Origin: Sistotremastrum niveocremeum HHB9708
Taxonomy: Eukaryota > Basidiomycota > Agaricomycetes > Sistotremastrales > Sistotremastraceae
Direction: 5' to 3'
Length of the DNA stretch: 64,000 bases
Assembly: GCA_001630475.1 (NCBI GenBank)
Contig: KV419398.1
Coordinates: forward strand, 781,825 to 845,824
A model generated the notes under the pieces. That model saw only the letters and a list, made by a program, of their open reading frames with translations. It was not told where the DNA came from and made no database searches. Both the position numbers and the translations under genes were made by a program. Shown here in pieces: positions 20,512-55,713 of this stretch (its first letter is position 1; every line of letters starts with the position of its first letter).

Positions 20512-23160
20512 CTAGAAATTAGAGCCGAAGAAAGGAGTTGACATTCTCGTGACACGATGCGTCGGCGTCGAGTGGGTTGACAGGATGCCTGCGGCGGAGC
20601 GTGTACCAGTCTCGTTCTCCTCGTTTTCCTCCGACTCCTCCGTCGAATGCCCCGCAATCGAGTGATTGGTGACCGGAATGGCTGATGATGAAGCCACAGG
20701 ATGATGTTGCCCTTCGCCGGACGGCTGCTCAGAGTGCCATACGAACTCTTGGCTCCCACGAACGTCTACATCCTCCGCTGGCGCAGTGGAATCGAACCAG
20801 AGTTTAGTGAGACCCTGAACCCATCCGTTGTCGTGCCTCAGTCGATCTTCGATATGGTAGATCGACCCTGGGACTTGGGGAGTGTATAAGGAGCAGGCGG
20901 CATGATCATGTGTACGCCGGGGTGTAGCAGGGACCTCCGGTAAATTGAACGCGGGAAGGAGTGATGTGTCTAGGGAAGGAATGCGAGAAGGACCAGCTGC
21001 TGCCTCAGGTTGGGTTGTCGCCGAGTGTGCAGTGGTAGATTTTCGCCGGCGGGACCCTAACCGAGTGAGCTTTTGGAAGAAAGATAGGGAATCCGAGGAC
21101 GCCGGAGCTTGAGAAGGGTCACGAGAAGAAGGTGACTTCATCAAGCTCAAATCTAAACTGGTACGCGCTCGCTTGTTTTTATAGTCCCGATCATTCTCCT
21201 TCGACGATGACGAAGAGTGCCCACGCTTTAGAGGATTAGGCTTCACCGAACTAGGATCGTTCAGAGGCATCTTCCCGATTATCTCACTCGGAAGGGGATT
21301 CGATTGTGATCTTTGTTTAGACCGTCTGGACGATGAGGGCGTCGCCGGGGCCGATTGAGGATATGATGGGCGAATCGGCCAATAGCGAGTGTTGCTCCTT
21401 GACGTCGAAGAAAGGACACCGACAACAGTGGGCATATGTTGCCTCGTTCCTAGAGTAGAATGGGCTTCGGTCGGGATAAAGGGGGCTTGAGGAGCGTGAT
21501 GGGCAGTTGGTGGCATTGCGAGCGCTTCCAACCTCTCTTCCGAATCTTCCGGAACGGAGGCCAGCGTGCTCGCGCTCGAAACTCTCTGGCGCATGTGTAT
21601 ATGCGCGGCGCCCGTCGATGGACGCGATTGCAAAATGGATGAGGGTGTATGCGAAGGTGGTACATTCGACCCGTTGGCCATGTCGAAGTCGATGATGGTT
21701 GATCCCAACGAAATAGTTGTCGATGGACGAGGAATAAAGGTGCTTTCGAGCCGGGCTTCGTGGCTGTGATCATGAGAAATGAAATCCCGCCATCCCATAA
21801 TGCGCCTTGCGGAGTGGAATTGCTTATCGAGAGCCTCCTTTTGTATTTCTTCATCGGCTACCGCACAGAACCACTTCCATAACCTCCCAACTTTGATCAC
21901 CCACCACCTCAGGTCTCGAAGTTCCACTTTGTTGAGCTGCGGCGCAACGTTAGATCTTCGAAGCGACCCGAATATGAAATCATTGAGGCGTACCGCATGC
22001 TTTACTCGCTCAATGATGGCCTCGTTGCAATCTCCACAACGCCCAAACACTTGTGCGTTGACGACCCGTTGCAACTCTTTCGGTAAGTGAGGGAAAGTCC
22101 GGGCGATTATCTTGACTCCGCATTTGACTGAACTAGCCCACACATCCACCAATGATGCCTCTGCGAAATTCCAACCGGCGGACTTCATGGCTTCAAGTGC
22201 GCCAATGACTTTTAATAGGAACTTGAAGCTGAAGCGTTCGCCAGCATCATGCTTCTCGTGGGCGATGCGTATAAGATGATTGACTAGTGATGTTGCCATC
22301 GAAACTGAGTCCGAGTTTCGAAGACGCATTAAGGCATACTTGAGACATTGTTCCGTGGATTCGTAAGGATGGTTATTGCCAGGGAAGCAGATGATCCGGA
22401 TGAGACAATCGGTGACCACAGAGGCATGTCTTTGCTGTGAGAGGGGTGAAAGCCAGAAGGCGGAAAGGGCGGCGCTAAGTGGTGGGAGGAGAGACGTTTT
22501 CTCTGGAGAGTCTGGAAACTCTTTGCAGAGCGCTGAAACTGGTAAGATAACTCTGAAATATGGTCAAAGTCTGAGCTGACACTTGAAAATGAGTAAGGAC
22601 TCAACTGCTTTTTCAAGAGTGCGAAAGACTCTTCCCAATCCTCAAACTGCGTGGCTACGCACGCTGCTAAACCGACGCTCTCCACCACGAATTCCTTGTC
22701 GTGAGTGCTCAGTATCTTGGAGGAGAGCTTGGTGACGCAATTGAGTAGGAAGGAGCGTGTGTCGGCGCGTGCATCGAAGGGCAATGAGCCGTTGATGATA
22801 GAGCTGCGCAAATCCGCTGCGACTTTTCTCATGATCTGCAGAGAATCTGGTGTTTCCGCCGCTGGATCCAAAGCAACCTCGTTCATCAACGCAACCACTC
22901 TCTTGATGGGCTCCGCGCAACCTGAAGCAATAACTTGCTCAGCCATACGCAGCAGCATCCGTCCCTCTACATTCTCTCCGTTGACCCACTCAAGATCGCG
23001 CGTCTGGATGGGGAGCTTGGTAATGTCGAAGATGGCGGAATCGAAGGGAGCAGCATGGCGGGGCGAGGAGCCACCGACGGCAGCTACACAGATTATTCAG
23101 AAATGCGATATTCGGTTGAATCCAAACAAGCCTACCACTAGTGGAGACTGATGGTCTCAT
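20512..23160 (-). CDS. Orphan C-x2-C-N family protein, member 1
   Basis: Four exons on the minus strand (23160-23136, 23083-22583, 22538-21994, 21936-20512) join in frame to 831 residues. Residues 1-400 are helical; they end in FGRCGDCNEAIIERVKHA (Cys 343 and 346). The intron directly after this motif is 57 bp with no in-frame stop. The block after it (RWWVIKVGRLWKWF... EIQKEAL) is shared with member 2. From about residue 410 the protein is disordered: Ser/Pro/Arg-rich, with a basic patch (LKRGHSSSSSKENDRDYKNK) that could be a nuclear signal and a conserved island AAGPSRIPSLDTSLLPAFNL also seen in member 2. No known domain recognised. TATA box about 120 bp upstream. Related genes lie at 37646 (+) and 53608 (-). 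Confidence 0.82.
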
Positions 23161-23935
23161 AGCTGTTCCTGTCTTTCGTAGTTCTGGGGTGGTCGAGAAC
23201 TGTGGATGGGCGAGGAGGGGAGAGGAGGAAGGGGGAAGAGGGGAAGAGGGACGCGACGCGAACTAAATTTTGTCTCGTCTTTATATATATGAGCGATACT
23301 GAAGACAAGGGGCGGGTCCTTGATATTCCCAGTTCTGAACATGACGCAATCGGAACCAAAAGAAGACACTTCCAAATTCCAATCGGGAAATCGGGGATCA
23401 GTTCCGATTTCCATCAAGTATCTCGCAATATCGGAAATTTAGTCCGTAATCAGATAAACCTCTTGTCAATGGTGCTGAGAAGACTAGCTTTACACGAAAA
23501 CCGTTATAACATCAATTCGTCTGAACACGGTAACGAATCGTGGCGAGCTGAACTTCTGAAGCAAGTTGCCGTTTCGGCAAAACTAGCCGAATGCGGGGTG
23601 AGCCTGGACCCTGTGGGGCGTCGATCAGCGGAAATAAATTCAATCCAAGAGTCATCAAATTCTGGTTCAATTACTAGTACTAGTCGCAATCAGGTAATTC
23701 AAGGTGGATTGAAGATGAGCGAAGAGGGGTCATAGTCTGTTGTCATTGTATTCATGTCAATTAATATGGTGTATCACATAGCCAATTCACCAGACAAAAA
23801 CAGCAGGTGTACCAGATGATGTTCAGTGACGAAAGGGAGCAGCAGAGCAGCACACTCAAAAGTGAAGGAAATCCGAAGCTCTACAAGTATCCCTGGAATT
23901 TAGTAAAAAATAATAAATCAGAACAAAATGAATAA
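23161..23935. other. Intergenic stretch upstream of family member 1
   Basis: Contains the TATA box listed separately, then a 177-codon frame on + (23202-23735). That frame opens inside a purine-rich run beside the promoter and shows no domain, so I do not call it a gene. The end is A/T-rich and leads into SINE copy B. Confidence 0.35.
23279..23287 (-). promoter_or_regulatory. TATA box upstream of family member 1
   Basis: TATATAAAG on the minus strand, about 120 bp before the ATG at 23160. The two related genes also have TATA-type boxes about 100 and 55 bp before their starts, so the promoter type is shared across the family. Confidence 0.5.
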
Positions 23936-24210
23936 CAGACGAGAATCCCGACTTCCCTCACCTAGTAGGTCCACTACCCCTTTCCCCATGGATCAGGCGT
24001 CACCCCGAAGGATGAGATGGTCCTAGTTCGGCGTGTTCAAGGAGAAGCCGTGACTCGTCCACCGGCAAGCGGTCTCACATAGGACGGTAGGTGCCCATGT
24101 ATCAGCACGTCCCCATGGACGCTTGACTGAGTTGAACCTGGGTCGCGACATCCAGTTACTCAGCCCTGTGATACACAGCGTTCTACCGCCTAGGCTACCT
24201 CGCCCACCGT
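23936..24210 (-). repeat. tRNA-derived SINE-like repeat, copy B
   Basis: Same unit as copy A and closest to copy C; B and C share nearly every base from CAGACGAGAATCCCGACTTC to the tRNA-like head (A-box-like GTAGCCTAGGCGG on the minus strand, B-box-like GGTTCAACTC). The preceding A-rich stretch (23900-23935) corresponds to the 3' tail. Homology with copies A and C continues past the head to about 24370. Confidence 0.75.
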
Positions 24211-25610
24211 TAGTATGCTAGGTAACGCGAGCGTATAAGCACTTCTTTTTCCCTCTTGACAGTACTTTTCGCGAGGCGGTCCGCTTTGAGATTCCGGATT
24301 CCGCCGGATGCATCTATATTCGGAACCATGGGATATGTGCTGCCAGAGTCAAGTAGTCGCATCGGGATGATCCGATTCCGAGTATGTATGCTTTCGAATC
24401 CGCCAATAGTGCAGAAGATAACAGTAACGGCGTCGGATGGATTTTTTGTTCAGGAGAAGCAGCAATGTCGGCTCAAAGCTAGAAGCTATGTCCTGCGGAG
24501 TAGCAGTCATGGCAGCGATTGATGGTCAGATTTAAGATTTGTGAGCAGGGTCCAAGTGTGAAGCTTGTGTGGATGAGGCCAGGAAAAGGTTCACAGAGGA
24601 AGAAGGGATTATCGAACATCTGTTTGAGGTCAGTTGCATTTTTCTTCCCTTTGACAGGATTGAGGAAAGGCAAGTACGAAGGACGAACCAACCCGACGCA
24701 ATTGTGTCCACCGAGGAATCTATAATCGAGGTCAAGAAAGTATTGGAATCAAGAAATGAATAAAAACGTACAAGGCATAAGGGCCGCAAGAGTTTCGCAC
24801 CCGATTTAAGGAAATGGCGCATCGAATTTCGACGACGACGAAAGTGGCCAATGCAGGAAGGGAACCGTATTGATGGTTGAAGCAGAGTCGAATCAAGGTA
24901 AGTGTACTGACCGACAGATAATTGGACTTCGGAGAACGAATGCCTGTCTAAAGTTGAAGATCAGAGGCCTGCGATAGACGAAGAAAGCACTTGCGGGATG
25001 AGTCCAGGGATCGTAGCGAGACTCGCTGTGATTCTGATGACCGATGGCGAGCCCTCTCTTGAGCTATGATATGCGTCACGAATCATTGCCCAGAGAGCCC
25101 GTCTTTGCTTGTGATTGAGGCGTGGCAGAGCACGATCCAGTGAGCAGAGTCAAGGAACATCGGGGGGAAATCTCAGAGATGAACCTAGAAATTTCACGTT
25201 GAAAGGTTGCGAATGTATCAGTGATGATAAACGAACCAAGTATGTCGGTGTTCTTTAAAGCGTGGGTATAGACCAAGGCAAGCGTACTTTTCGCAGCCTG
25301 GTATCCGTAAGAGAAATACGTAGATCGGTATCAGCGCCTGGCAGCACACTCCTGAGCAGACCGCGAAGAGCAGGTTAAAAGTAATCGAACGATTTGAGCA
25401 TACGATCTGGACGAAAAGCGAGCGATTTGAATCAGATGCCGTGATGTCGAACGGAAGGGACGAGAGAGCTGGTAATGGTGACGGATCATATGTAGAGAAC
25501 TCAGATGAGCCTATAGTGAGCTCAGATGCATGTCCCGGCGTATATGCCTGATGTAGCAGACGGACAATGCTCATACCTGCAGTATATACTAAGTCACAGC
25601 ATCGAGAAGA
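24211..25610 (-). pseudogene. Paralogous gene segment beta (degraded, minus strand)
   Basis: Colinear with 28276-29600 and more weakly with 17776-18900. Minus-strand fragments shared with the gamma segment include N-x-V-x-GKK (about 24650) and K-x-x-DI-x-G-x-F-(I/V)-ITD (about 25250 and 29275). The upstream part has a hydrophobic frame (25574-25218) with a membrane-like run FNLLFAVCSGVCCQALIPIY. This suggests a multi-exon membrane protein gene, but frames break too often to build a model. Not recognised as a known family. Could still be a functional gene with many tiny exons. Confidence 0.45.
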
Positions 25611-27560: not shown

Positions 27561-27999
27561 TTCGTTTCTGCCGGTACTCGTAATAGTGGATAACCCCTCT
27601 TCGCCGCTCCATGTCATGTATTGCTGTCCAACTGTCAAGCCAACTGTGATAAATATCACCCATTAAATTGATGTTCTTCGTTTGAGCTTCCTCATAACTG
27701 GTCTATGCCTGAAAATTCATAGATTCATTTTCAAGTCTGACAAGTATCACAAATGATTTGTGGATTGTCTTTATTGTCGAGTCTCGATACGACTGATGGG
27801 CGAGGAAATCGAAATTGCAATCCTGATCAGCTCAGTCTACCATTTACGAAAGAAGCGCCGACATCCGGTTGCTGCTGACCATACGCACGAGTGCATTGAG
27901 CAATAAAATGACAGTGATCTGCAAGAGAACAGCAGGGCAGATTCCAAAGCCCTACAAGTATTCCTGGATTTCAGAAAAAAATTAGAACAAAATGAGTAA

Positions 28000-28275
28000 C
28001 AGACGAGAATCCCGACTTCCCTCACCTAGTAGGTCCACTACCCCTTTCCCCATGGATCAGGCGTCACCCCGAAGGATGAGATGGTCCTAGTTCGGCGTGT
28101 TCAAGGAGAAGCCGTGACTCGTCCACCGGCAAGCGGTCTCACATAGGACGGTAGGTGCCCATGTATCAGCACGTCCCCATGGACGCTTGACTGAGTTGAA
28201 CCTGGGTCGCGACATCCAGTTACTCAGCCCTGTGATACACAGCGTTCTACCGCCTATGCTACCTCGCCCGCCGTT
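28000..28275 (-). repeat. tRNA-derived SINE-like repeat, copy C
   Basis: Nearly identical to copy B over the body, while its head (GTAGCATAGGCGG on minus) and the 120 bp beyond it are nearly identical to copy A (for example ATTTATTTATCCTCTTGACG). It carries the same B-box-like GGTTCAACTC. Mosaic identity suggests exchange or gene conversion among copies. Confidence 0.75.
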
Positions 28276-29600
28276 AGTATACAGGGTAACGACAGACCAT
28301 AGCCATTTATTTATCCTCTTGACGGTATTTCTCGTGAGGCGGTGCACTATGAGGCTCCGGATTCCGACGGATGCTTCTATATTCGAAACCGAGCGATATC
28401 TGCCACAAGAGTAAGTCAGTAATTCCATCAGCAGTAGGATTGAAAGAAAGCTGAACCCTGAGCGTGTGTGATGGAGAGTTCGCCAATATTGTAGGAGATG
28501 ACAGTCATGTCGTCAGATAGATGTTGTAATCAGGATATTCAGCGGTATTCGTTCAAAGCTAACAGCTGCGTCCTCGAAGCGCAATTGATGACCAGATTTG
28601 TGGGTAAAGCTTGGGAAGAAAGCCTGCACGGATATGAAAAGACCGAGAGCACATCGAGAGCAAGGAATGGTCATTTATCTCTTTTAAGTCGAATTCCAAA
28701 TTTCTTCCCCTCAACGCGATTGAGAAAAGCTGAAGACGTTGGGCAGAGAAAGCTGCCACCAGAGTGTATGCGAGAAATCTGTAATTATTGATCTCATGAA
28801 CAGCGGAAAACCAAGAAGCGAAAGAATGTACCAGACATAAGAGCCGCAAGAAAGGCGCCAACGATCTGACAAAAGTGGCGTGTCTATCATGCTGACGATG
28901 ACGAAAGTGGCCGATGCAAGAGGGAAATCGTATTTATAGTTGGAACAGGGTTGCGTCGAGGCAACTTTGTTGATCGTCAGATAAATGGACCACGTGAACG
29001 AGGTGGTATACACGCTTGAAGATCGGATGCCTGAGATAGTGGAAGAAAGCACTTCACAGATAGGCTTCGAAATCGTAGCATCAGTTGCTCTGACTGATGA
29101 CCGCTGAAGATCGCTCTCTTGGACTTTCACTGGCATTATGGACATTGGCTAAGATAGCCCGTCTTGCGACTGAGGCGTAGCAGAGCTCAATCCAGAGAGC
29201 AGAGTCAGAGAACATGGTGAGCAGATCTTGGAGATGAACCTAGACGGACCAGTGTTAATAGGTTGTGAATGGAAAATCAGTGATGACAAACGGACCGAAT
29301 ATGTCGGGGTGCTCTTTGAGTATTTGTATAGACCAAAGGCAAGCGTCCTTCTTGCAGCTTCGAACGAGTTCGTATCCCTTATCGACATCTGGCAGGACAA
29401 TCATCAACGAAACACAAAGAAAAGGATAGATGAGAACGAACGATTTGAGCAGGCGTTTGAGCACACGACCCGGACAAAACGCAGGCAATTGTGATTTATG
29501 CGCCGCGAAGCCGAACGGAGGGGATGATGACGGGTCACCGGTCACCTCTGGTGGTGGTGGTGTACTCGGGCTTGAAATCTCGGCCTTGGAGCATAGAACA
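28276..29600 (-). pseudogene. Paralogous gene segment gamma (degraded, minus strand)
   Basis: Third copy of the segment described at alpha and beta. Minus-strand frames include a 144-codon one (29145-28711) and a 96-codon one (29545-29255) with a hydrophobic stretch (KSFVLIYPFLCVSLMIVL). The series of short hydrophobic frames separated by possible small introns looks like a multi-exon membrane protein. No recognised domain. Conservation to beta at the DNA level is clearest between 29150 and 29400. Confidence 0.45.
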
Positions 29601-31344: not shown

Positions 31345-32937
31345 TCATCATTCCCATGCATACGCGCACTTCAATCATACCCGAACTTCACCTCGATAGC
31401 ATGAATAAGCACTTCCACCCACCCCCTCCCGCCCTTCTCGACGTATCTTCCCACCCACGCGCGCCGCTCTTCTCTTCTCAGCCCGTCCCTCGCCTCATCT
31501 CGTCTCGCATAGCACGTCTCGTTCCGTTTAGCTACTTTATCCTTTTGCATTCGCGTACCATACACTTGTCATGTTTATCACGACCTCTTCGCCAGCCTGT
31601 TTACTTTATCCCTTTGTCTACTTTATTCCTTCCTCGTTATTATCAGTACCTTATCGCAATGTCCTCATCCGTATCACGTCCTCGTATTATACCGTTTAAG
31701 AAATAATCACCATCATCATCGCATCACATCATTCCCGATCATCTCGCGCTCGTCGAGCATATGCTCCTCCGATTAGATCAAAAGATCAAAAAGACTAGAT
31801 CATGCCATTGAATAATGGATTCGCGAAGAAACATCCGCGATCAATGCCCAGATACAGATACAGTACAGGTTAGATGGAAGGAGAATAGAGGAGTGAGAAT
31901 TTGATTGCGAACTAGTTCGTGGCACGTAAATTGATCCGTCGAAGCTTGCGTCGAAGCGTAGTTGCCAAACGAGGAACAAAACGAAGATCCGCCCAATTGC
32001 AAACGCACATCATGATGGCATCCATCTCGACATCCTATTCGGGCCAGCGCGATCACAGAGGGATTTACGTATGTATTGGTATATTGTATGTTAATCCGAG
32101 TTCGTGATGGGTGCATGTGGTCGTGCTAGGTTTGGGAGATCTAAGAGGCGGTGTTAAGTTTTATAGGGAGCTTGATTGGGAAGAGGATTTCGAAACGGGG
32201 CTGAGTTCGGAGGTGTACGGTGGGGATGTCATAGCTCATAGGTTAGTTTCAGGGATGACTGCTAGCACCAGTACTAGTGTTGTTAATGATCTGTGATTCC
32301 AATCCGAATTCCACTTAGATTTCGAAGGTCGGCACAATGATAATGCCATGGCATAGGTACAGTGAATCGGAAGCAATAGACGTTTGAGGCGGATGGATTT
32401 GGAGATACAGTATGCCGCCGCCAGTAGCATGTTACGGGGTGGCGTGGGTTGGGGGTGAGATGTAAGTAGGCATGGTTAGAGTGCAGGCCGCCGCAAAGGT
32501 TGTGGACGTGTGATAATATTCTTAGTCACCCGAGCCTGGCAAAACTTGAAGTTGATCGGGAGAGAAATACACAGGCCCCCAAAAAGCAAAGACGAGCGAT
32601 TAATATTGGTATCGTTAGCGTTATCGAATGGGTGGTCAAATTAACATCGTGTGTGGTGTAGACCTGTACAATCGTAGATCGACGAATGGGCCAGACAAAA
32701 GTTGAAATAATTGAGAGACAGTCGATCGGATATATTACTGGCAATCCCAGCGAGAAACCTTCATAGAGATGCAGACGAAGACGAGTGATGGCATTATTGA
32801 TGATTTCAAGGTGGTATTAGCGCTTTGGTCAGCCTTGGACTGATGCCAGGATCGGAAAGAAATTCCAGAGGTCGTCGTCAGGAACACTACACAAGCAGAA
32901 AATTGAAATGAACATTTAGCAAGAAAAAAAAAAGGAA
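31345..32937. other. 1.6 kb with no recognisable gene
   Basis: The first 350 bp (31345-31706) are pyrimidine-rich and are likely 3' UTR of the preceding gene. The rest holds only short frames. It ends in an A-run (32924-32940) that is the tail of SINE copy D. Confidence 0.4.
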
Positions 32938-33588
32938 AAACAGACGAGAATCCCGACTTCCCTCACCTAGTGGTTAGCACTACCCCCACCATTCCAGGTA
33001 AGGCGTCACCCCGAAGGATGAGATGCTCCAGTTCGGCGTTTACAAGGAGAAGCCGCGACTCGTCCACCGGCAGACTATCTCACCGGGCCGGTCGTCCGCT
33101 CTAATACCAGCACGCCCTTCCGGACGTTTTGACTGAGTTGAACCTGGGTCGCGACATCCAGTTACTCAGCCCTGTGGTACAAAGCGTTCTTCCAACCAAG
33201 CTACTTCATCTGACGTTACTCTATAGGTATGAAGGATTTCTATAAGCATTTCTTTTTCCCCCTTGGAAGAGGCAGTGCACTCCGGTTTCCGAATTATGCT
33301 TCCGTACTGAGAAGTGCTTTAATAAATTTATTCAGGTGGTCCTCTTTCAGGTCTAATATACACATGTATATCTTCCTGCTCGCTATCCAACCCTTTCACA
33401 CGCTACATGTTAATCTGTTGGTCTCGCATGTATTTTGCCAAGAGCTAAAGCAGACGGATAGCCATCGACCAAACTCGACCCAGAAAAAGCCTCGGAGTAG
33501 TAATGCCAGTGGAGTTCGTTGCCAAAGTGCCTGAGGACTGAAAGCCACTGCTAGAAGATTCACAGAGGGCCGAGCTGATCGCCGAACC
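32938..33588. repeat. Left arm of a 651-bp inverted repeat
   Basis: Every position x in this arm pairs with 69703-x in the arm at 36115-36765, with no gap. By eye the two arms look identical: the SINE part matches base for base, and a 101-codon frame inside (33229-33534 +; 36169-36474 -) gives the same peptide from both. The arm holds a whole SINE copy (D) plus 373 bp of unique DNA. Homology stops abruptly at both ends. The 101-codon frame is probably not a gene, since it spans the repeat without any domain. Confidence 0.9.
32941..33215 (-). repeat. tRNA-derived SINE-like repeat, copy D
   Basis: Lies inside the left inverted-repeat arm. Minus-strand head GTAGCTTGGTTGG fits the A-box well, and the B-box-like GGTTCAACTC is intact. 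The body is diverged from A-C (for example TAGTGGTTAGCACTACCCCC) but has the same order of conserved blocks. Preceded by a 10-A run. Confidence 0.75.
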
Positions 33589-36114: not shown

Positions 36115-36765
36115 GGTTCGGCGATCAGCTCGGCCCTCTGTGAATCTTCTAGCAGTGGCTTTCAGTCCTCAGGCACTTTGGCAACGAACTCCACTGGCAT
36201 TACTACTCCGAGGCTTTTTCTGGGTCGAGTTTGGTCGATGGCTATCCGTCTGCTTTAGCTCTTGGCAAAATACATGCGAGACCAACAGATTAACATGTAG
36301 CGTGTGAAAGGGTTGGATAGCGAGCAGGAAGATATACATGTGTATATTAGACCTGAAAGAGGACCACCTGAATAAATTTATTAAAGCACTTCTCAGTACG
36401 GAAGCATAATTCGGAAACCGGAGTGCACTGCCTCTTCCAAGGGGGAAAAAGAAATGCTTATAGAAATCCTTCATACCTATAGAGTAACGTCAGATGAAGT
36501 AGCTTGGTTGGAAGAACGCTTTGTACCACAGGGCTGAGTAACTGGATGTCGCGACCCAGGTTCAACTCAGTCAAAACGTCCGGAAGGGCGTGCTGGTATT
36601 AGAGCGGACGACCGGCCCGGTGAGATAGTCTGCCGGTGGACGAGTCGCGGCTTCTCCTTGTAAACGCCGAACTGGAGCATCTCATCCTTCGGGGTGACGC
36701 CTTACCTGGAATGGTGGGGGTAGTGCTAACCACTAGGTGAGGGAAGTCGGGATTCTCGTCTGTTT
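36115..36765. repeat. Right arm of the 651-bp inverted repeat
   Basis: Reverse complement of 32938-33588 without any difference that I could find. Immediately outside (36766 onward) the sequence ACGCTTTTGTATATTTTTCC is unlike the A-run outside the left arm, and I saw no target-site duplication bounding the whole structure. Confidence 0.9.
36488..36762 (+). repeat. tRNA-derived SINE-like repeat, copy E
   Basis: The same SINE as copy D carried in the right arm, so here it reads on the + strand: A-box-like GTAGCTTGGTTGG near 36497, B-box-like GGTTCAACTC near 36559, end CTCGTCTGTTT at 36755-36765. It is the only copy in this orientation in the window and clearly arose with the inverted duplication rather than by separate insertion. 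Confidence 0.75.
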
Positions 36766-37540: not shown

Positions 37541-37549
37541 ATATAAATA
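37541..37549 (+). promoter_or_regulatory. TATA box of family member 2
   Basis: ATATAAATA about 100 bp before the ATG at 37646, followed by a pyrimidine-rich leader (CTTGTCCTTTTCCCTCACTT), a classic strong fungal promoter layout. Confidence 0.6.
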
Positions 37550-37645
37550 GGAAACGCGACCAGATCGGCTCGCAACTCACTCTTGTCCTTTTCCCTCACT
37601 TCGCCCATCCTCAGGCTATACTACGCCACATATTATCAGTAGCCC

Positions 37646-40251
37646 ATGGCAAAGTCTCACAGTAAGCTTATCTTCCCATTGATGACTGTAGATCTTGTCT
37701 CACCAGAGTGTACAGACCTGGCGGGCAATCCCCCGTTGCCGAACACTGTCTCGACGACGTTGCCTGGCTCCGACAGCACGGCAAGCAACCCGGACACAGA
37801 GCTCATTCTGACCCTTGCAAAAGGATCACTGGCATCGAAATCACCAGTCACCTACATCGCTGCCATATCCGGAATGAGTGAACGGATTCCTGCTGTCCTG
37901 CCAGCGGGGACGACAATTCCTCGCTCGACATTGTTCCTCATTCGAAAAATGACGACACTGGTCTCTACGTCAGTAACGGAAGGCGGCATGCCAGAAGAAG
38001 CTCGCGAAACTACCATATCATTCCTCAACAAATGCGTCGTGACGTTAGCCCTCAGCCTGCTCGCCGCTCCAGATCAAAGCCCAATTCCGGAAATGGTCGG
38101 CGCAATGGCATGTCTTAACTCTCGGCTCGGAGCTCGAGAACAGTCTTTAAAGCTACTAGACGAAACGTGAGTATCGACCATTCAATCGAGGCGATGACAA
38201 GGAGACTGATTACTCTGATCTCAGTCTTGTCTCGCCCATCCTCTCATCCCCCGAAGCGGTTCGCTCTTCACTAATCCCTCCTTTCTTCGGGGCGTTGGCC
38301 GCTTTCTGGATTGTTTCAGCATCGGACGATCGCGAGATTGTAATCGAGACTGTCGTAAAGATTGTGGCTCACACCGCCGCCCACGGTCAGTATGAGTGCG
38401 TCGAAGCGGGTTTAAGCGCTCTTTTCTTCGTGCTATTCCCAGCAGCCATTGGTCGCGCTCGTTCCGTCTCGTCCAATTTGATCCTTTATGTTCGAGAGGA
38501 ACATAACAAGGGTGACGCCTTCGCCTTCAGAGTATTGACGCGTCTCGTCGCCGTGTACGAGAAGTTGGGTGCCGCAGGATGGATGTATGCGTCCAAGGAT
38601 CTGTCTCCGATGTGGTCGACCTCCATTAAATGCGGCTCGGACATTCTGAACGAGTCGTTCCCATCCCTCCCTCTTTCTTTTCGTGCGCTTCTCAACAAGG
38701 AAGTCTTTGTTCGTTGCACTCTTTGCAACGAAGCAACTATCGAGCGGGCGAAACGCTATCACGGGGTGAGTTTTCTCTCTAATTTGATGGCCGACTTTAT
38801 CTCTTACTAACATGTTGATACAGCTCACTGCCAATCAGGCCGCAGATCTTAAAGTCTGGCTCTTCAAAGTCGCCGCTTTCTCGTTGTGGTTCGACGCGAT
38901 TCCGGATCTGGATGTTCAGAAAGAAGCCCTCGGTTCGGCATACGAGGAAGTCAACCCCCTTCTAGGCAAGCAGAGCGTCGAGAAACACGATCATAGTATT
39001 ATCCTCGACATCGCCTCCTCATCCATTACCTTCCCCGCGCCGAATTCTTCTTCCGCTGCGCCCAGTACATCTGCGGCCGGCATCCCCATCACATCCCCTC
39101 CCAATACCACTCGAGTACGCTTGAACTCACAATCGCCGACGTCTCGTGCCCAGTCCAAGCAGAGAGTTGCGCGGCCCATGTCGAACGTCGCGACATTGGC
39201 TCCTGTCCACGAGGAAGACCCTCATTTAGAGGAGGCGGGATCTTCTTCCGTCGCCGGCAACGTCCCTCTGCCTTCTGATGCTATAAAGTCTCCACCAACG
39301 CGCACAAGACTTCCGGTACCCACCGCTTTCAAAAGTCCCCCAGTGGTTAATCATACCGTGGTGAATGTGCTCGGTACCTCTTCAAAGCCAAATTCCCAGG
39401 CCGCGCCAACTCAGGCTAAGGCATCGGACCCCCCTCCCCCGACGAAACAGACTGTCAAATCAAAACCCCGGTCAACTCAGCCTCCAGCGGCAACAACTAA
39501 GGCGAAGAAGGTGGTGAAGACCCCGACGGTGCCAACGGAAACGACAACAACAACGAAAGCGACGTTGAAGAGGAAGGCTCCCGCCTCGACTGTGGAGAAG
39601 GAGAATGCTGGACCTGAGAAGAGGCCTCGGAGTGATGTTGCTAGACAAGTTTTCTCTCCGACTCGGCCTTCTTCGCAACCATCGACGTCCCCTGCAAAGA
39701 CTGCGCATTCTGTGTTCCTCGATCAGCTTGTCCAAGCCCCGACACGTCAACGAGGCACCATCTCCCATCCTCAGACCGTAGCGGGTCCTTCTCGTCTCCC
39801 TCCTCAGGCTGCAGCTCCTCTTCTGCCGGGTATCAATCTTCTAGATTTCTCTGTTGCAGCCACGGGACCTTCGAATGCGCGAGATGCATATCAACATACG
39901 ACAGATTACATCTTTTCGTCGCCCATCGCCCCTGGTCCTGAGGACGAAGTGGCAGGCCCTTTGAGGCGAGATGGCCGAAGAATCCTCAATGTCGATGGTC
40001 CCCATCCTCCGTTATCAATGCCGATGGAAGGTATCGCTGGCCCCAGTAATTATCAACAAGCGTCGCAAGAGACTTCATCCGCAGATACGCATACCGAGGG
40101 ATCCGATCAGGCTTCGTCCGGTTCGACAGCACTTACCCAGGCCGGTACACGCCTTCCTTCCTCGGCTTTGTCAAAGCCCAAACCAACTTTACCCGTCCCA
40201 GCTCAGCGCAGGTCGAGCCGAAATATCTCCAACGTTGGGATTATGTGGTGA
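37646..40251 (+). CDS. Orphan C-x2-C-N family protein, member 2
   Basis: Three exons (37646-38166, 38225-38765, 38824-40251) give 829 residues, nearly the same length as member 1. The helical N-terminal half ends in FVRCTLCNEATIERAKRYHG (Cys 338 and 341), followed at once by a phase-0 intron at the same place as in members 1 and 3. The block after it (LKVWLFKVAAFSLWFDAI... VQKEALGSAYEE) matches member 1. From about residue 400 it is disordered, rich in Pro/Ser/Thr/Lys, with basic stretches (TLKRKAPAS... EKRPRSD) that could act as nuclear signals, and the island VAGPSRLPPQAAAPLLPGIN parallels member 1. No recognised domain or enzyme motif. Own TATA box. Looks intact. Function unknown; a scaffold or nuclear regulatory role is only a guess. 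Confidence 0.85.
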
Positions 40252-40955: not shown

Positions 40956-43900
40956 TCATTGAAGACCGCTCCTCTCAGCTATACGACTCAACAACGCTTC
41001 CATATTTGTGAGCCGCGTACTGAGGTCCTTCATGCTCTCTGCATGACGACGTTCCATCTCCTGAAGACGTTTCTCGACACCTTGGATTCCTTCCTTCGAG
41101 TGTTCTTTCTCATCTCTGGACTCCTGAGAAGGCTTCTCATGATCAGTGTCTTCTTTCTTTGACTCGGGTTTTCGAACCCATAGAAGAACATGTTCAGTGA
41201 GATGAGCTGATCCTTTCGGCGGGTTATTCCTCTCGCAAACGACACAAAGAATATGATCTGTTTGAAGAGGGTTAGAGTGGATGATATGATTGAACAATAA
41301 AACCTTACAAGGACAGTCCAAGCAGCGGAAATATCCCTCGGTCATCGAGTGCTCATCATCATTATTGCAAAGCAATGAAGGAGAGTCGTCAGGCAATTCA
41401 GCGACCACGGATTGTTTCGAGGCAATCCTATCCATCATCTCATCCTCCTCCTCGATTTTCGCCGAATCTTCGGATGCGGTATCGGAAGTGTCGTCGTGAT
41501 CGTGACCATCCTCACTATCCGTTTGCGTTTCCGGTGATTGGATATTGTTGCGCATCGATTTCTGGGGAGCAGCTCGAGCGTTCTCTATCAGTCCATGTGC
41601 CTGAGCCACGTATTTGTGTCGCGCCCCCCATATCAAAGGGAATGGCACTTTGAGAAAGGCGTGTTTCTTGTGAACGCCCTTTCCCACCTGATCGGTGTGC
41701 GCGCACATTTCGCATAGATCATAGCTGCTATATCCGCGGTCCACTGTTTAGAATTTCAGGAGCAGAACTTCAAGAATGTTAAACAGACGGACTACTGCAA
41801 TTTACGCAAATAAGCCGAACCCCTTTGACAGGGTAAGTAGAACATTCATCGCATGATACAGATCTAATCGACGCCGATCAGCGAAGCAACAATGGAATCG
41901 AGAATTTCATACCGATGCGATCCACTCTTTACTTTGAGGAGGATATGGACAGATGCGTGCCACTTTATTTCTGGAATATCGGCTCTCCAACAATCCAGAC
42001 AGAACCGAAAGCCTGGAGAAGATGGCAACGATCAACATCCAGCAAATGAATAACTGATCCAAAAAAGGATCATTCACCATCGCACTGCAGGCACTCAAAT
42101 CTAATGAAAGAAACGTGGCGTTTCCCGCATGTGCCGGCGCATTTTCGATTGCTCTCCTTGTTCAAGTCCTTTTCCCATTGGACTTCCTGTTGGTTCAGAT
42201 GTGCTTGTTCGTCATGATTCGCACCAGACGCGAGTGACTCTTTCACTGCCTCCCCCGAGCTTGAGTTCCCAAGCATGCGGGCAGTGTCGTTCGTCGTTGC
42301 TTTTTCCGATTGAGATGGACCGAGAGATTCGGGTGATATTGGGCAGTGTTCATCGGTGGCATCATGGAGAAAAGTAAATTCTTCATCTTTAGATTCATCC
42401 AGAATTGGCTGAGTACCCTGTGCGGTGTTGGGATCATTTCCGGCCTTTTCCTCTGAGTCTTCGGCGTCCTTCGCTTCCCGAATTTCCTCGGTCGACGGCT
42501 CGGAAGTTTCATCTTCTTCGGCAACGTTGTCGATTTGATCGCTCCAGTCATCGATATTCTCGAAGCGCTGCCAGGCTTTCTTGATGAGGTGCTTCACGGT
42601 CGACCCGGACATTGGCCAGGGAAGACGGAACATGTTATGACTGCGCAAATGAGTGTGGTCCACGAAGGCTGCAGTTTCGCAGTTCTGACATAGATCGAAG
42701 TCTAAAGAGATAGGTTAATGCAGAGATTATGATGATAGAGAACATAATTGCCTTCGCACTGCATGCACTTATATCTGGGCCCAACAATGTCAAGCGTACG
42801 CTGAGGATTACATCCATCGCAGGACCAAAAGCGGCTATAGCATAGATGAGCGACAACACATATATTCATGCCAGTTGCGACATACTGGATTTGCTGCTGA
42901 CGCACTTGCAGGTCGGCGATAGGCCAAAGCCGCTTGCTTTGGTCCTCCGCGAACAAAATATCAAACGCAGCCGACCAACGATCGAAGAAAGCAGATTCTT
43001 CGGTTTTGTAATGCCTATAGCGGATGATCTTCATGAGGATCTCAACATATTTACGTTCTTCCTCCGTTGCGACTTCCATAGGAAGCGTGTAATGGGGGTA
43101 ACTCAGCATATTCACGCTCGGCTCAGGCTGCACCCAAACCTTGTTCCATATTATACCAGGCACAGTGAATTCATTGCTGAGAGAGCTATCATCGACGGAG
43201 CTGTCCCCGTGCTTGCAATTGATCAAATATACGGGTAGGAACTATTCGTTGGATGTTATTAAGACTCACTAAATGACTTAATCTCACATCACTTACCATG
43301 CCTCCCGCGTAGCGGGTGAATCGTTTCTTGAGGTCATTGAACGGCTGTGCGCTGAAGAGCTCTTCAAATAGTTAACAAACGCTCAGTCTAAGTGGCCGAC
43401 ACGCACTATTCAAGTCTGCAACACGGTTTGCCCAGGCACGTACGATCACCGAGATGGTTGACCCAGCCAGAATGAGCTCGTTCCCATGTAGTATATGAGT
43501 TTTGGCTAACTTCATGATGCTTAGATGTCGAGAAAGCACCAAAAGTAGAACAGGGAGGATGAACTATGCGGCTAATTAGCTCAAAGAGGACGCGAGATCA
43601 GAGATCGTACTTGTTCCAAAGTTTCCTTTCGACCTGCAGTCTGAGAAATCAGGAAAAGCATGTCCGTGTCATGGATTTCATATCGCCAGACGTCTAGACT
43701 CGCAGCCAGAGTCTTTTCCCGGGACTTCATGCAGTCCATAACCAATTTACACAGATTTGAGTTGTCATACAAAAAAAGGCTGATTTCAGCTGCATTTTGC
43801 CCCAAGATTTGAAGAAAACTCGTCAGATGATTGACGATGTAGTCCTGTACCAGAATAGCATTGATGCCTTTGACATCGGGCATGGAGATCATCCGCTTCA

Positions 43901-47966: not shown

Positions 47967-48164
47967 ATTAATTCTGATATATGTTTTCTAGTTCTGTTCA
48001 ATATGTGGGATCTTGTACTCGATAATATTGTGTACGTTCGTATAAAAATGTTTGCAGTAATACAAATGGATGGGATGGATGGGATGAAGGTAGAGGATAC
48101 AAATGACCAATGAATCTCCACAAGCGAGGAAAAAAGCGACGCAAGCCAGACTGCACTCTCATCA

Positions 48165-49206: not shown

Positions 49207-51375
49207 CTTATATAATAACACACAAAATCGAGAAAAAATTAGAGAGGAAGATGTGGGTATGAGGAGAGACGACTGACTTGACTAGGTTGTGAGGGCTTTG
49301 AGTGCGAGAACATGACTGACGACAACAGAGCAGGGAACGAGCGTTGGGAAGGAACGAAAGGGTGGAACGCCTCAGGGCGAGAAGAATGAATGGGCCGAAG
49401 AGCACGTGATCGCGTTTCAGCGTTGTTTGGTCGCCAAACAAGCCGGCTTTCGGCCCATTTCGGAAGGATGATCTGCCACATCATTCATGTCCTCAAGTTA
49501 TCCTGAGCATTGTATACGATCTACACAGCCATTATGTGCGCAAACCAACACATTTTCATTATCTATTGACGTCAATTTGGGCCCTTTTGCCCATGGTGGG
49601 ACCAGAACATCGTTTTGGGGTGTAAGTGGGGACGTTAGGACCGCGTTCATTCTGTGTCAGATGTCTGGACTCTGCATCAATAGGACTATTAGGTAGTGAG
49701 ATTGAAAGGAATGAGGACGAAATAAAGTTGAACCTCCGTGGGCTAAATATCATTGAAGTCTCGCAGACATAACAGCGCACGAAAATAGAAGAACAATGTT
49801 TGCATCAGAAGGTCTTGTTTCCCAGGCCAATCGAAGGTCGGCAGAGAACTTGAGCCTCAGAATCGCGGCGAGAATCATTGCTGATCACCGTGACGGAGCT
49901 ACACATATCGTTGATTTTTCCGATGGGCCAGTCGACGCCGTGTCCGTCCTCAAGCAAAAAAGGGGACAACAGCAGGAAATCGTTCATCGGTACCGCAGGT
50001 GCGGCAGTTTCAGCAACGAGTATAACCTCTTCCAAGCAGATTGAGGTTCATGCCGTCCGCCGAATCTTGTTCGCTTGATGGAAGAAGATGGAAGAAGCCT
50101 GTTTCGCCGTGACTTCTGGCCGCGGAAAAATTCAACAAAGAATATGCATACCAGGAAGAGTTCCGTCAGTCAGCGGCAGTGTGCAAGAAAAGGCCCCGTG
50201 AGCAAGATTGACGATGGGTCTAAAGGATTGGCCAGCAGGCTGTCGTCCAAAGTGGGAGGCGGAGTGAGAACGAAAGCTTGAAGGCATGTCGGCCGATTTT
50301 GAGCCCTCAGAGCGAGATGGAGGACCGCCACCACCTTGCGCCTATTTCGAGTTGTTCGAGCACCGGTATGAATACCACTACCATGTATTCTGTCATCTCT
50401 TTGCTCCAGCAGAGAAACGCTAGGAAACCCCAGGCAGAGGGAACGATGGAGACTGGGTCGAATAGGGGTCTGGAGTCTGGACGAGAAATCCATCGAGGGC
50501 TGGGATTGGGTGAATACCGCTAACAGACATATGTTTCAGTGAGCTCACCTATCATATCATGCATGGAGATGTGAAGCTCGACAAGTCGCCGCGGCAGCGT
50601 CTGCCTATTCGCCCAGACTCTACCCTTCTAATCGCTGTCCTGGAAATGGAGGCGACAGTCGCGAACGCTGATTGTTGAAGAGTCAAATCTCTGTAGCCTT
50701 CCTCTCGGACAAACTCACGAGTATGGGCGTAATCCAGAATGTAGATCAGAGATGTCAATGACGATGCTTGCTCAGCCGGCGGTTGCGAGATTGAATATTG
50801 AATCGTTGTACAATTTTAAGCCGGTTCGTCCACGGAAATCGATCCTGGGCTCGTAATTGTGAAATTTATGGGTCGGAGCGCTCCCAATATGTTGCATCAT
50901 GTCTAAGAACAACATCATGATCCTGCAAAGGCGGGAATCCAATCAAATGGGAGACCAACCATGAATACCGTCCTCAGGCTCACTCAGGCTGACTGCTCGT
51001 CTTGAGAATCGGGGTCATCAGGATCATCCCAGCTTCCACGATTATGCTGCTGGATTAGATAACCCAGCCTAATATGAAGACCATGGTGCAGAATGCAGAG
51101 ACCGAAGAGAAACGAGGAGATCGAACGGAAGCAATATCATATAATATTGACCCTGACAGGCACGTGCACACAGGCCCAGGCCCCCGCAAAGCTGACTGGC
51201 GCCATTCATGATTTAAGAGACTCAGAGTTCTCATTGAGAGTGTGAGTGACAACCTTGTCAGGAGATAGAGGAGCATGATACAGATTTATTTTCATAGAGA
51301 GTTCCATTATAATATTGCTGCGAACGAACGAACTCTCCGAGTAACTCAACCAAAATGAAATAAAATAACGAAACG
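49207..51375. other. 2.2 kb with no recognisable gene
   Basis: Facing frames at 49796-50044 (+) and 49805-50035 (-) cover the same DNA and neither has a domain. A hydrophobic minus-strand stretch near 51180-51060 (SAFCTMVFILGWVI) could be an exon remnant of a membrane protein. Nothing else. Confidence 0.35.
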
Positions 51376-51643
51376 CAGACGAGGTCCTGAATTCCCTCCA
51401 CCTAGTGAACCACAAATCCGTCCCTACCGGACCGATCATTACCTGGCTTAACCAGATAAGGTGGACAGTTTGGTGTTTCTATGAGTTAACCAGAATCGCC
51501 AAACAGGTTACACATCTTATCGGCCGGTAGAGAACCAAAGCTGCCGCGATCCTACGAAGGCAAGCTAGAGTTGAACCTGGGTCGCGACATCCAGTTACTC
51601 TAGCCCTGCAGCCCGGCGCTCTACCAACACAACTACGCCCCCT
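51376..51643 (-). repeat. tRNA-derived SINE-like repeat, copy F (diverged subfamily)
   Basis: Minus-strand head GGGGGCGTAGTTGTGTTGG and then TAGAGCGCC is close to a real tRNA 5' half, with B-box-like GGTTCAACTC downstream. The stretch between the boxes (TAACTGGATGTCGCGACCC) matches copies A-E, while the body has diverged (CCTAGTGAACCACAAATC block shared with copy G only). Confidence 0.75.
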
Positions 51644-51971
51644 GTTAACATATAGAGTGATCACGCGTTTAAGAGCCTTTTTTCGCCTTCTTTGATTTGA
51701 TTTTGGGGGGAAAAGTCGTGTGGTCGCATTCAGAAGGGTTGGTGTTCATGCTTGCGTTTGTGTTCAACCGTCTAGCGCCCTTCATTTGCCCTTCATGAGA
51801 GCAGCGGCGGCATGTAGCCTCGCAACGCGCACAATTACACTATAACCAGAACCTGGTGAACTGGTATAAAAAATAAAAAGGGGTGGGTCTAACCTTGATC
51901 TCAGAGTCTAGTCCTCACAAAGGAGCGGTTGCGGTTAATCGTATACAAAAATAGTTCAGATATCAAAAACA

Positions 51972-52243
51972 CAGACGAGATTCTGAATTCCCTCCACCTA
52001 GTGAACCACAAATCAGGCCGCACGGACTGATCATCATCCCCCGCCCTCATCCCGGTATGAGGTGGCCAGTTCGGTGTTACGACGAGTTAACCAGAATCGC
52101 CCCACAGGTTCCGCTTCATCGCCCAGTTAAGCGCGCAAATTGCTACCATCACACGACAGCGAACTGGAGTTGAACCTGGGTCGCGACATCCAGTATTCCA
52201 GCCCTGCAATTTACGCGCTCTTCCGGCACGACTACGCCCCCCG
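51972..52243 (-). repeat. tRNA-derived SINE-like repeat, copy G (diverged subfamily)
   Basis: Second member of the F-type subfamily, same orientation, 330 bp further on. It shares the tail start CAGACGAG, the CCTAGTGAACCACAAATC block and the B-box region GGTTCAACTC; its head reads GGGGGGCGTAGTCGTGCCGG. About 50 bp outside the head are also alike in F and G. Confidence 0.75.
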
Positions 52244-53607
52244 TTAAAACCTATGGTGTTAACTTCGCTCTAAGCCATTTTTGCCGTGTTTGGGGGAAAT
52301 TATGAAATAGTTCATATCGGTTCTGTCTGTAGTGAGCGTACGACTCCCAAGCTGACATCCAAGGGCCGTTACAGTGCAGCATATTCCCCCTTGGCATAGT
52401 CGCCCCTCAAACGAGTCCAGAACATGGATAATTGCGGTTCAATAAGGATTACCATTCGATGTCACGATTCAATTGACGATAGAGTGCTACAGCATTACGG
52501 TCGTGAGAAGAGTTCTGATATATCTCAAGGTACCAGAAGCTTACAACATTTAGGCTCAGGCGACCTTCAGCATTGTATCATCACTGAGCAAAAATTGAAT
52601 AAATGTCGGAGTGCATCATAGGTCGCTCAGAGCAAGGATCTTGGAGTTCACAAGTACGCTGTCGGAGCATAACTCTAACACCTCGTCAATAAACAAGAGC
52701 GTTAAAAATGGACATCACTCACCGCAGACCATGACAGCGATACAATCGAAAGTGCGGGAATTGTCAGGCTTCGGGATTACTAGTAAGACTCGAAGCACTC
52801 AAGGATGTGCTTGAAGGGTTCAACTTGAAAGACGAGACGAGGAGCTGGTGTATTAATCTGAACCTCCGTTAGTCGTCGCAGATGCAGGCGAAAGAGGAAG
52901 GAACGTACCACAAATAAAGAAGGCTGCCATGGTCGTCGCATAACCGAGCTCTCCGACACGATCGCCTCCGAGTGACATCAAGGACGCTTATGCGAGCTGG
53001 AGCGACTGGGTGTCCCGACCCAGATCAAGCCTACTAGCAAGCTGCGATATTGACCTTTGTCATTAGCGTAGCCTTCCTCACAAGTGACACCTGCTGGATT
53101 CTGTGGTCCAAGATTCCAAGTCCCGCAAGTCGCATAGCAGAAATGGCAGATGAAACGTGTCAAATCTAGGTACAATAGCAAGTCGACCGTCAACATCATG
53201 AGCATGAACCGAGCTGGCGAGCTATTCCAAATGGATCACTTTGTGCGGTGGTAGGTTTTGGAGGACCGGACTGACTATGAACGTCTGATCACACAACGGA
53301 GGAAGTCAGATAGTGAGAATTTGAGGTTGTGGACTCGTCGAAGTCAGACATGCGCATTGAGTGTCGGGTTGTAGTGAAGGTGATGGACGGCTGCTTAGCG
53401 CTTATTCAAGTATTCACTCGGCAGACATGTGTAATAGTAGTAGAACCTGTGATTTTCACGATCGACAAAACGAGTCATACACGCAATAGGGACGAATAAA
53501 GAATAAATAAAAAAGGAAAGGCAGCGTAGAAAGTCAACGGCATCACAGGAACCAAGTAGAGCTCGAGCTTCCTAGAAGTCATCATAGGTGACAAAAAAAG
53601 GAGACCA
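52244..53607. other. 1.4 kb with no recognisable gene
   Basis: A minus-strand frame at 53205-52978 is Cys-rich with hydrophobic sequence (TRFICHFCYATCGTWNLG), and a nearby stretch reads GDRVGELGYATTMAAFF before a donor-like site (about 52910). These could be exon remnants of a membrane protein, but no model holds together. Confidence 0.3.
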
Positions 53608-55713
53608 TTAATAGGGTTTCCATGGAGGAGACTGGGCGCGTGAGTGTGGTCGAGTCGCTTTTGGGCGGGAACTGGATGGAGACTTTAGTTGTGCTGCTGT
53701 AGGACTCGTGACTGTCATATCCAGGCCGTTCGCGTTCGTCGAAGGGGTCGGAGCGGAAGTCTTCCTGTTCGTGGCCATGGGGAGCCTTGACGCCTTGGGT
53801 TTGGCCATTTCCGAAAAATTTTCAACTTTCTTCTCTGTGCTTGGATTGCCAGTTAACTCCTGAGTCGCGACAGATTGTTCCGTAAGTGAAAACTGAGAGG
53901 CCGCAGGGTCTTCCAGACGACGAGCTTCTCTTCGAAGTGATCCGGATGGACGACGATGCAATACCTCGGTAGAATCCAAATAGTCGGCCGCGGTAAAATC
54001 GTTTGTTTGGGCGAGAGCTTCTTGATTTGCCAGTCGTATGGGGGATCCGAGTAAAGAAGCCTGATTCGCTTGACTCAACGAAGGGAGTGTGCGTGCGGGT
54101 ACGGGGATGCTGCGTTCTTGAGAGGTCATAGCGTAGATGGCGGCCATGAGAGAAGGGGGGTGGTCGATGCTGACGTTTTCGGAGATGGCATTGGGGAAGG
54201 CACCCAAAAGAGCAATGTCTGTGTGCCTGTGCGCAGTGCGTACATTATGATCTGGTAAAACGGGTCTTGACCGGCTATGATCTGTGCGGGATCTTTTGTT
54301 GTGAGGTGCCTCGTCTGCGGTAGGCGACTGCCGCTTAGAAGTTTGCTTTCCCATCGATGAACCTTTTGCATGACTCGAATCATTGTCAGCACCTCCTGAC
54401 TCTTGAAGGTGATTATGCTCCGCTGTGTCCATCCATCTCATCATTGCAATGAGTCGGGGAAAGTAAGAGCCAAGCAATGTTTCTCGGACACATGGATCGG
54501 AAATGATCGTGAATAAGGGTTTGAGCCGATAGCCTTTGGAAAGCCAATGCTTAATATCGTCAAATTGTTTCGGTGTAATCTTCACAGAGAGGGTCAGATT
54601 TCAGAGCTTCAAGAAACTCGATAAGAGATCATACATGTTCAAGTGCCCTGGCTTTCAAGAGCTTTGATCTGTTGCAATCCCGGCAAGAGGTGAAGGAATG
54701 TGCACTTAGCACAGGCGAGGAATGTTCGGACAGGACCGGGAACGATCTGATATAGATGGGGGCCAGAAACTTAAGTGTCCGGACCCAAGTAGGGGCTAGC
54801 GCTTCGTGCTCCAGAGTGCATCCGGCTGCATGGCTCATCTCCATTGTTGGTAGCAGTATTTGTGCAGTAAACGTCAGCATATATGAGTCGCCCCTCTCGT
54901 CGACCTCCTGAACTCGGCAAAGAAGCTCCTGTAATACGTGTCGGAATTGTAAGATACTGGAATCGTCGGGGACATTGCAATCGGATAAGAGTGTCTTGAT
55001 GCACTGCCTGGCAATTTTCCATTGGCAGAGGTCGGTACAGGCGAAAACGATGCTGAGTAAAGCGCTTCGTATTTGATTGACTTCGTTGACATCAGACGAC
55101 TTCGACATCCACGACTCTTTCAGCGCATTCGAAACGACAGGGAAGATGGAGATTCTGGATACTTCAGGGAGATTTAGGATAGAAGGAAGGAGGCTAGAAA
55201 GAATATGAGTATTTCGAAGGTAGAAAGTATCGGAAAGATCAAGCTTTACCGCTTTTTGAGTAAGTTCAACGCGCGCGCAGAACCATTGCAGTGCAAAGAG
55301 AGGCAACACAGCGTTTCAACGATCTCTTGAAAAAGCGATTTGCCGGCGTGGTCGGTGACAGCAGACAGCAGAGAAGTCGCATGCTGATCCAAAAATTTCT
55401 CCAGATGCGATCGCGTGTCAGGAGGTACTCCTGTCTTCGAGACTACCGTGCGAGCTGCGGCAGCCACATTTCTGCGGAGATTGTCTACTTCAAGCGTCTG
55501 CGCTTGGTGACTAGCCTCGAACTGCTCAAAGAAACCCAATACATGGGCGGTGAGCCCCGGCTCCGCTGTTGCCACACATTTCTCTGACAATGACATTAGC
55601 ATCTCTATCCAGATGGAATCCGCCTTCGCTGGCGTTACGGTTGGATGATTCTGAGCTTCGGCGCCATTCGCAAAGATAGGAGCCTGGTTTGAGTCACCGT
55701 TTGACGTCGACAT
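53608..55713 (-). CDS. Orphan C-x2-C-N family protein, member 3
   Basis: Three exons (55713-55250, 55193-54635, 54579-53608) join in frame to 664 residues, shorter than members 1 and 2 because the disordered tail is shorter. The helical half shares with the others the pattern ...FLDQHATSLLSAVTDH... LNLLKKR before intron 1 and ends in FTSCRDCNRSKLLKARALEH (Cys 325 and 328), directly followed by the family's phase-0 intron. Intron 1 has the same phase (2) as in member 2. After it, QFDDIKHWLSKGYRLKPLF keeps the spacing of member 2. The tail is Ser/Pro/Arg-rich with a possible nuclear signal (KQTSKRQS... HNKRSRTDHSRSR). It is the most diverged of the three. No recognised domain. Confidence 0.8.

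Follow-up and report, generated by a model that had tools for sequence, protein, structure and literature searches.

An unnamed, strongly diverged gene family with conserved cysteine and histidine pairs and a structured RNA candidate in its neighbourhood in Sistotremastrum niveocremeum HHB9708

What kind of protein is encoded by three similar predicted genes that lie, in both orientations, in a repeat-containing stretch of the genome of the basidiomycete Sistotremastrum niveocremeum HHB9708, and how do they relate to those repeats? The window analysed here is the whole stretch of 64,000 nucleotides (contig KV419398.1; C5:781825-845824 of a genome of 34.7 Mb in 111 contigs), and the genes are M1 at 20512..23160 on the reverse strand, M2 at 37646..40251 on the forward strand and M3 at 53608..55713 on the reverse strand. 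An earlier note, made from the DNA letters, had given these positions and strands correctly, together with the several copies, both orientations and repeats, and had described a three-member family of no known kind with a C-x2-C-N motif followed by one shared intron. The motif is indeed present in all three (RCGDCN in M1, RCTLCN in M2 and SCRDCN in M3), the similarity found in sequence searches greatly exceeds what chance would give (when M1 is searched against its own genome, the best M2 exon has an expect value (E) of 1.2e-29 and the best M3 exon one of 2.5e-10), and alignment places the cysteine motif and the introns at coinciding positions in M1, M2 and M3. The earlier observation is thus confirmed, while its interpretation is partly supported. 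In our judgement it is rather probable that these genes belong to a fungal multigene family whose products are probable nuclear adaptors, each with a metal-stapled helical region and a tail.

All gene models are predictions, with introns placed from splice signals and homology. M1 (828 amino acids; exons 23160-23136, 23083-22606, 22552-21994 and 21936-20512) and M2 (814 amino acids; exons 37646-37661, 37707-38166, 38225-38765 and 38824-40251) are numbered from a 5′ mini-exon with a probable phase-1 intron behind it, and M3 (664 amino acids; exons 55713-55250, 55193-54635 and 54579-53608) is modelled without this 5′ intron, being the one exception among the nine members found first. The lengths of 831 and 829 residues given earlier for M1 and M2 are not borne out by these models, and the figure of 829 for M2 corresponds to the 5′ intron left unspliced. 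The phase-0 intron follows the N of C-x2-C-N by 10-12 residues in all three genes, well inside the 20 residues allowed for it earlier, and measures 57, 58 and 55 nt in M1, M2 and M3, respectively; in M1 it can be read through without a break of frame. The description of a single common intron was right as regards this one and incomplete, as a phase-2 intron that lies before it, behind a run of residues rich in leucine (which reads LLKK in M1 and M3), is also common to the three, and the phase-1 intron to M1 and M2. TATA-like boxes are visible by eye upstream of all three genes.

The family is considerably larger than the window suggests. Searches of the own genome with M1, C5a, C5d, C3, C4 and M3 as queries, followed by profile checks, returned at least 16 members and one fragment (near C5:748k), counts which are lower bounds and with which the idea of a three-member family falls. 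Eleven members form subfamily 1 (M1, M2, M3, C5a, C5b, C5c, C5d, C12, C29, C3 and C4) and five form subfamily 2 (C12:499k, C47, C84, C6 and C42), and seven of the 16, plus the fragment, are found in C5:615-838k, about 222 kb of one contig. All 16 members allow the phase-2 and phase-0 introns to be modelled at homologous positions, with the reservation that the phase-2 intron was chosen by homology from outside the four best-scored candidates in M1, was hand-picked in C12 and was the second-scored candidate in C5a, and that homology decided between two tied phase-0 acceptors in M2, C84, C6, C42 and C29, the donor, and hence the phase, being the same for both. C3 and C4 were retrieved through similarity over the whole domain, independently of the cysteine/histidine motif described below. 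A match at C48:148.9k was set aside for want of a profile match, and the weak matches at C1:1303k, C9:822k and C13:586k are kept outside the member count.

These copies do not look young. Pairwise identity over the N-terminal region is 19-40% among the first nine members, for which reason the recent expansion proposed earlier is unsupported, and in the six pairs compared by codon position the third positions are 27-37% identical as against 48-63% for the second positions, which are the more conserved in 6/6 pairs, a pattern expected of constrained proteins. A tree of the 11 subfamily 1 members joins M1 with M2 (97/96), C5a with C29 (97/96) and C5b with C5c and C5d (98/96); its base is without resolution, and the joining of C3 with C4 carries a risk of long-branch attraction. 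The family is strongly diverged and, by the sequence libraries tried, unnamed.

Across the N-terminal region of about 370 residues the sole invariant columns of the 11-row subfamily 1 alignment are C, C, L, H and H, four of which are candidate ligands arranged in two pairs that are present in 11/11 members, namely the C-x2-C already recognized and, downstream of it, an H-x-H that the earlier note had overlooked. The pairs correspond to CGDCN (residues 340-344, 22024..22038 on the reverse strand) and HDH (residues 409-411, 21766..21774) in M1, to CTLCN (residues 323-327, 38715..38729 on the forward strand) and HDH (residues 394-396, 38986..38994) in M2, and to CRDCN (residues 325-329, 54671..54685 on the reverse strand) and HNH (residues 396-398, 54409..54417) in M3, and are separated by 65-71 residues in the first nine members, by 72 in C3 and by 67 in C4. 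Four of the five subfamily 2 members carry C-x4-C as the first pair (GCGNSDCN, GCGRHECN, GCGHKKCN and GCGRNTCN) and a C-x2-C at most a few columns from the place of H-x-H, and so possess four cysteines in all, while the fifth, C42, is without both ligand pairs. The exchange of a pair for other ligands and the joint absence of both are predicted by one shared metal site, and the Cys/His pairs probably form a single structural site for a metal, putatively zinc. Two cysteines followed by two histidines is also the order of ligands in the zinc fingers of the FLYWCH/WRKY-GCM1 and BED types; unlike those, the pairs described here are 65-72 residues and an intron apart, and no Pfam zinc-finger match was obtained for the exons and members scanned.

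Structure prediction, proposed earlier for the N-terminal half, proved informative for the first part of it and less so for the next. AlphaFold2 modelled exon 2 of M1, the first large exon, aligned with M2 and M3, as six helices with a predicted local distance difference test (pLDDT) value of 86.5 and a predicted template modelling score of 0.83, so that this exon is a confident all-helical domain as far as the model goes. The part that includes the putative metal site (M1 exon 3, the retained 19-residue intron and the start of exon 4; five rows) reached a pLDDT of 61.3, too low a value for the model to reveal such a site. Neither modelled part had a Foldseek match among PDB folds at E 0.001. 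Pfam scans covered the window exons, nine members, and C6 and C84 of subfamily 2, leaving C3, C4, C12b, C47 and C42 outside, and in these scans every Pfam-A match stayed under its curated cut-off (one, with E 0.0089, scored 16.3 bits where 27 would have been required), no TROVE domain appeared at E up to 1, and no transposase-like or known DNA-binding domain was seen; NCBIfam and PDB sequence searches likewise gave nothing acceptable, in agreement with the earlier view that no known family is involved. We dropped Peptidase_C41 (E 0.0089), Poxv_Bcl-2-like (0.11), RsiG (0.018) and a designed helical chain (E 0.42) as matches under the cut-off or limited to a single member. The all-helical model and weak, non-significant resemblances to designed and natural repeats recall the HEAT, ARM and TPR helical repeats, but the conserved Cys/His pairs and the lack of a PDB fold match at E 0.001 set the family apart from these; Arm (0.14) and HEAT_SCC3-SA (0.094) each matched weakly in one of nine members, and no HEAT/ARM repeat was detected by a Pfam match over the cut-off or a fold match at that threshold. 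A viral collection scanned with M2 exon 3 held no relative, no protein scan of prokaryote genomes having been made, and among the papers listed in a literature search there was no sign of one naming the protein family or the RNA family considered below.

The N-terminal region is followed by a tail of 135-455 residues in 10 of the 11 subfamily 1 models, which is long and probably disordered. The nuclear signals that had been suggested as possible were found as bipartite motifs resembling a nuclear localization signal (NLS), such as KRGHSSSSSKENDRDYKNKR, in 9/11 subfamily 1 models and in 3/5 subfamily 2 tails, in each case by pattern and with no control for chance; they start 171-192 residues past H-x-H in seven of the nine subfamily 1 carriers and are absent from the C5b and C4 models, the two with the shortest tails, that of C4 being cut in the model. 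It is from this motif that a nuclear location is suggested. The island AGPSR[IL]P, shared by M1 and M2 as had been noted, was ruled out as a mark of the family, as the other nine of the 11 tails lack it; GPS, which is shorter, is present in 7/11, again with no control for chance. A KEN tripeptide lies within the bipartite basic motif in 4/11 subfamily 1 tails (M1, M2, C5c and C5d), which we liken to a KEN-box degron and which may be due to chance.

The dispersed repeat of the window leads to a second family, a candidate structured RNA of about 300 nt. Seven copies were located in the window, at 17496..17809, 23937..24245 (about 0.78 kb upstream of the M1 ATG and on the same strand), 28001..28309, 32942..33252, 51377..51681 and 51973..52280 on the reverse strand and at 36451..36761 on the forward strand (about 0.89 kb upstream of the M2 ATG and on the same strand). 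The two at 51377..51681 and 51973..52280 are divergent and lie downstream of M3, the latter about 1.3 kb past its stop codon, and those at 36451-36761 and 32942-33252 are identical over the stretch compared. A 24-nt core has 31 matches in the genome, 29 of them exact and two with one mismatch, and none with two or three mismatches, and the reversed core, used as a control, has no match; over the entire repeat, identity drops from 91% to 72% among long matches elsewhere. Beyond the 31 core matches, two diverged partial copies are found beside the C3 member (L037 6393-6468, E 2.6e-7, and 6936-7178, E 1.1e-17). The core has no exact match in the viral and prokaryote collections, and Rfam gave no match at the gathering threshold in the window and none to E 10 in 27900-28500 or to E 5 in 51350-52400.

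An alignment of 29 of the 31 copies, two having been dropped as identical to others, was folded with RNAalifold under ribosum scoring, giving an energy of -165 for the strand opposite the core and -114 for the core strand. The former strand was chosen because of its lower energy and the box and T-run signals described below, although the core strand also beats column-shuffled alignments (-106 against -56; 14 copies, ribosum scoring); with standard scoring, computed for the chosen strand, the value is -48.2. In the predicted structure 94.2% of cells pair, as compared to 34-45% when the structure is slid along the alignment, and two-sided changes occur in 32/63 pairs as compared to 10-13, a comparison in which the structure is favoured over its slid versions because it was derived from the same sequences. 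Shuffled alignments had 87.1% of cells paired and 18.8 pairs with a two-sided change, and 0/500 reached the observed values; the covariation extends through both halves of the RNA. A TATA-like box stands at a near-fixed distance in 23/31 copies, a loose A-box pattern occurs in 30/31 (in six of which the first match is upstream of the expected place, leaving at least 24/31 with it there), the B-box GGTTCAA is present in 31/31, by selection on the core, and a T4 run is found no more than 50 nt from the conserved 3′ end in 31/31 as against a background of 15%. The repeat would thus fit a gene with type 2 signals for RNA polymerase III (Pol III), that is an A box, a B box and a T-run terminator, and is best described as a predicted, Pol III-like gene. 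An upstream block, CGGAA..CCGGA..GCAC.GCCTC..CAAG.GG, can be seen by eye in many copies.

The co-occurrence of the two families is where the alternative explanations part. Within the C5 stretch that holds seven of the 16 protein genes, and which is 0.64% of the genome, fall 19 of the 31 RNA core matches, and off C5 RNA copies lie no more than about 3 kb from two of the nine protein loci, C12:772k and C3, an outcome with a chance of about 3e-4 by a simple uniform-placement estimate. The C12 member is flanked on both sides by RNA copies that are mutually inverted, and next to the C3 member one core copy and the two diverged partial copies stand in a row. Such adjacency could mean that the proteins are partners of the adjoining RNA genes in a nuclear ribonucleoprotein (RNP), the helical region binding a Pol III RNA much as Ro60, a helical-repeat protein, binds the structured Pol III-transcribed Y RNAs, which we regard as unlikely. 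The likeness is one of analogy, between a known RNP and genes that are here merely adjacent and known from their sequence, and no RNA-binding helical family was matched in the Pfam scans made. An RNA copy does lie upstream on the same strand at M1, M2, C5a and C12 (0.75-0.98 kb) and at C5d (about 2.2 kb), but the other six subfamily 1 members depart from this layout, the RNA lying on the opposite strand 3-4 kb upstream at C5b and C5c, downstream at M3, 0.55 kb away in divergent orientation at C3, and absent at C29 and C4. Nor was an RNA copy found in 4-kb stretches at the five subfamily 2 loci, or a family member in the 3.2-3.4 kb downstream of 6/9 RNA copies remote from known members. The spacing was, moreover, noticed post hoc, and shared local duplication can account for the clustering without any function. 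The sober interpretation is that neighbours were duplicated together and the bold one that RNA and protein form a working pair, both being possible; the boldest form, a new two-component nuclear RNP of metal-stapled helical proteins and tRNA-like Pol III RNAs of about 300 nt whose core is almost invariant, the two having multiplied jointly within a single block of the chromosome, is in our estimation a long shot.

Duplication is visible around M1, where three collinear, diverged tandem segments (17476-18489, 23872-25189 and 27943-29244) carry RNA copies; between the copies at 23.9 and 28.0 kb identity is 98% over 300 nt, as compared to 76-82% in three further blocks aligned between these two segments, and either constraint or gene conversion could lie behind this. 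These segments, together with the clustering on C5 and the NLS-like motifs, would also suit a family of chromatin or transcription regulators diversified by local duplication, with the RNA genes as bystanders in the duplicated stretch, an explanation that we consider a serious possibility falling somewhat short of even, since no known DNA-binding domain was found in the scanned members and the adjacency off C5, at C12 and C3, would require separate coincidences or co-duplication. Just upstream of M2 lies an inverted repeat with 668-nt arms (32921-33588 and 36115-36782; 99% complementary, 2.5 kb apart), each carrying one RNA copy, and this, with the dispersal in both orientations and the position of the C12 member between inverted RNA copies, brings to mind domesticated or active mobile-element genes whose ends would be the RNA-like repeats. 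Helenus elements, terminal-repeat retrotransposons in miniature, are reported to have long terminal repeats with tRNA-like sequence in Agaricomycetes (PMC10886601). The RNA repeat resembles these in its tRNA-like A and B boxes and its dispersal in a fungus; it differs from them in showing no sign of a target-site duplication, in its conserved upstream block and in its strong covariation. A 5-mer common to both flanks was seen in 24/31 copies as against 25.4 under shuffled pairing, and 5- to 8-mers were shared between the flanks of the 31 copies no more often than expected, a coarse test in which old copies could have lost their duplications; the repeat ends are, by eye, other than TG...CA, the conservation reaches into the promoter-like upstream block, also by eye, the covariation is found in both halves, and the protein genes are divergent, have conserved introns and gave no transposase-like match. 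A mobile origin is for us very improbable. The nuclear adaptor remains the preferred reading, and it builds on what was observed: the members are homologous, have a gene structure in common and conserve certain residues, the ligand pairs are exchanged in four members and both missing from one, the first large exon has a helical model, and the genes are clustered. The C-terminal part of the mainly helical region of about 370 residues would be held together at a single structural site for a metal, probably zinc, to which each protein would contribute two pairs of ligands (C-x2-C and H-x-H in subfamily 1, C-x4-C and C-x2-C in 4/5 of subfamily 2), the helical region would act as a scaffold binding a nuclear partner, and the tail would supply nuclear import and flexible contacts; metal binding, disorder, nuclear location, the adaptor role and the identity of the partner are what this reading would add to the observations. 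It has to contend with the fact that C42 is without the ligands, so that the site is not universal among the copies, with the low pLDDT of the site region, and with helical folds being generic, no fold match having been obtained at the threshold used.

Three further genes or open frames of the window deserve mention. A gene at 58240-61222 on the forward strand carries DUF6589 (PF20231, E down to 7e-52), with matches in two adjoining frames. At 40956-43241 on the reverse strand there are cysteine- and histidine-rich segments which presumably resemble ZZ-type fingers; a Pfam scan of three frames gave no match. An open frame at 23163-23735 on the forward strand lies beside M1 in divergent orientation, and neither a Pfam match nor another copy in the genome was found for it.

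For the family itself, four defined residues combined with the ligand swap and the gene structure furnish a precise profile with which fungal proteomes can be searched. The RNA family, with its covariation and Pol III-like signals, represents a concrete non-coding RNA candidate for which Rfam holds no match, and the co-location of RNA and protein genes in S. niveocremeum HHB9708 raises the question of whether the two may be functional partners.

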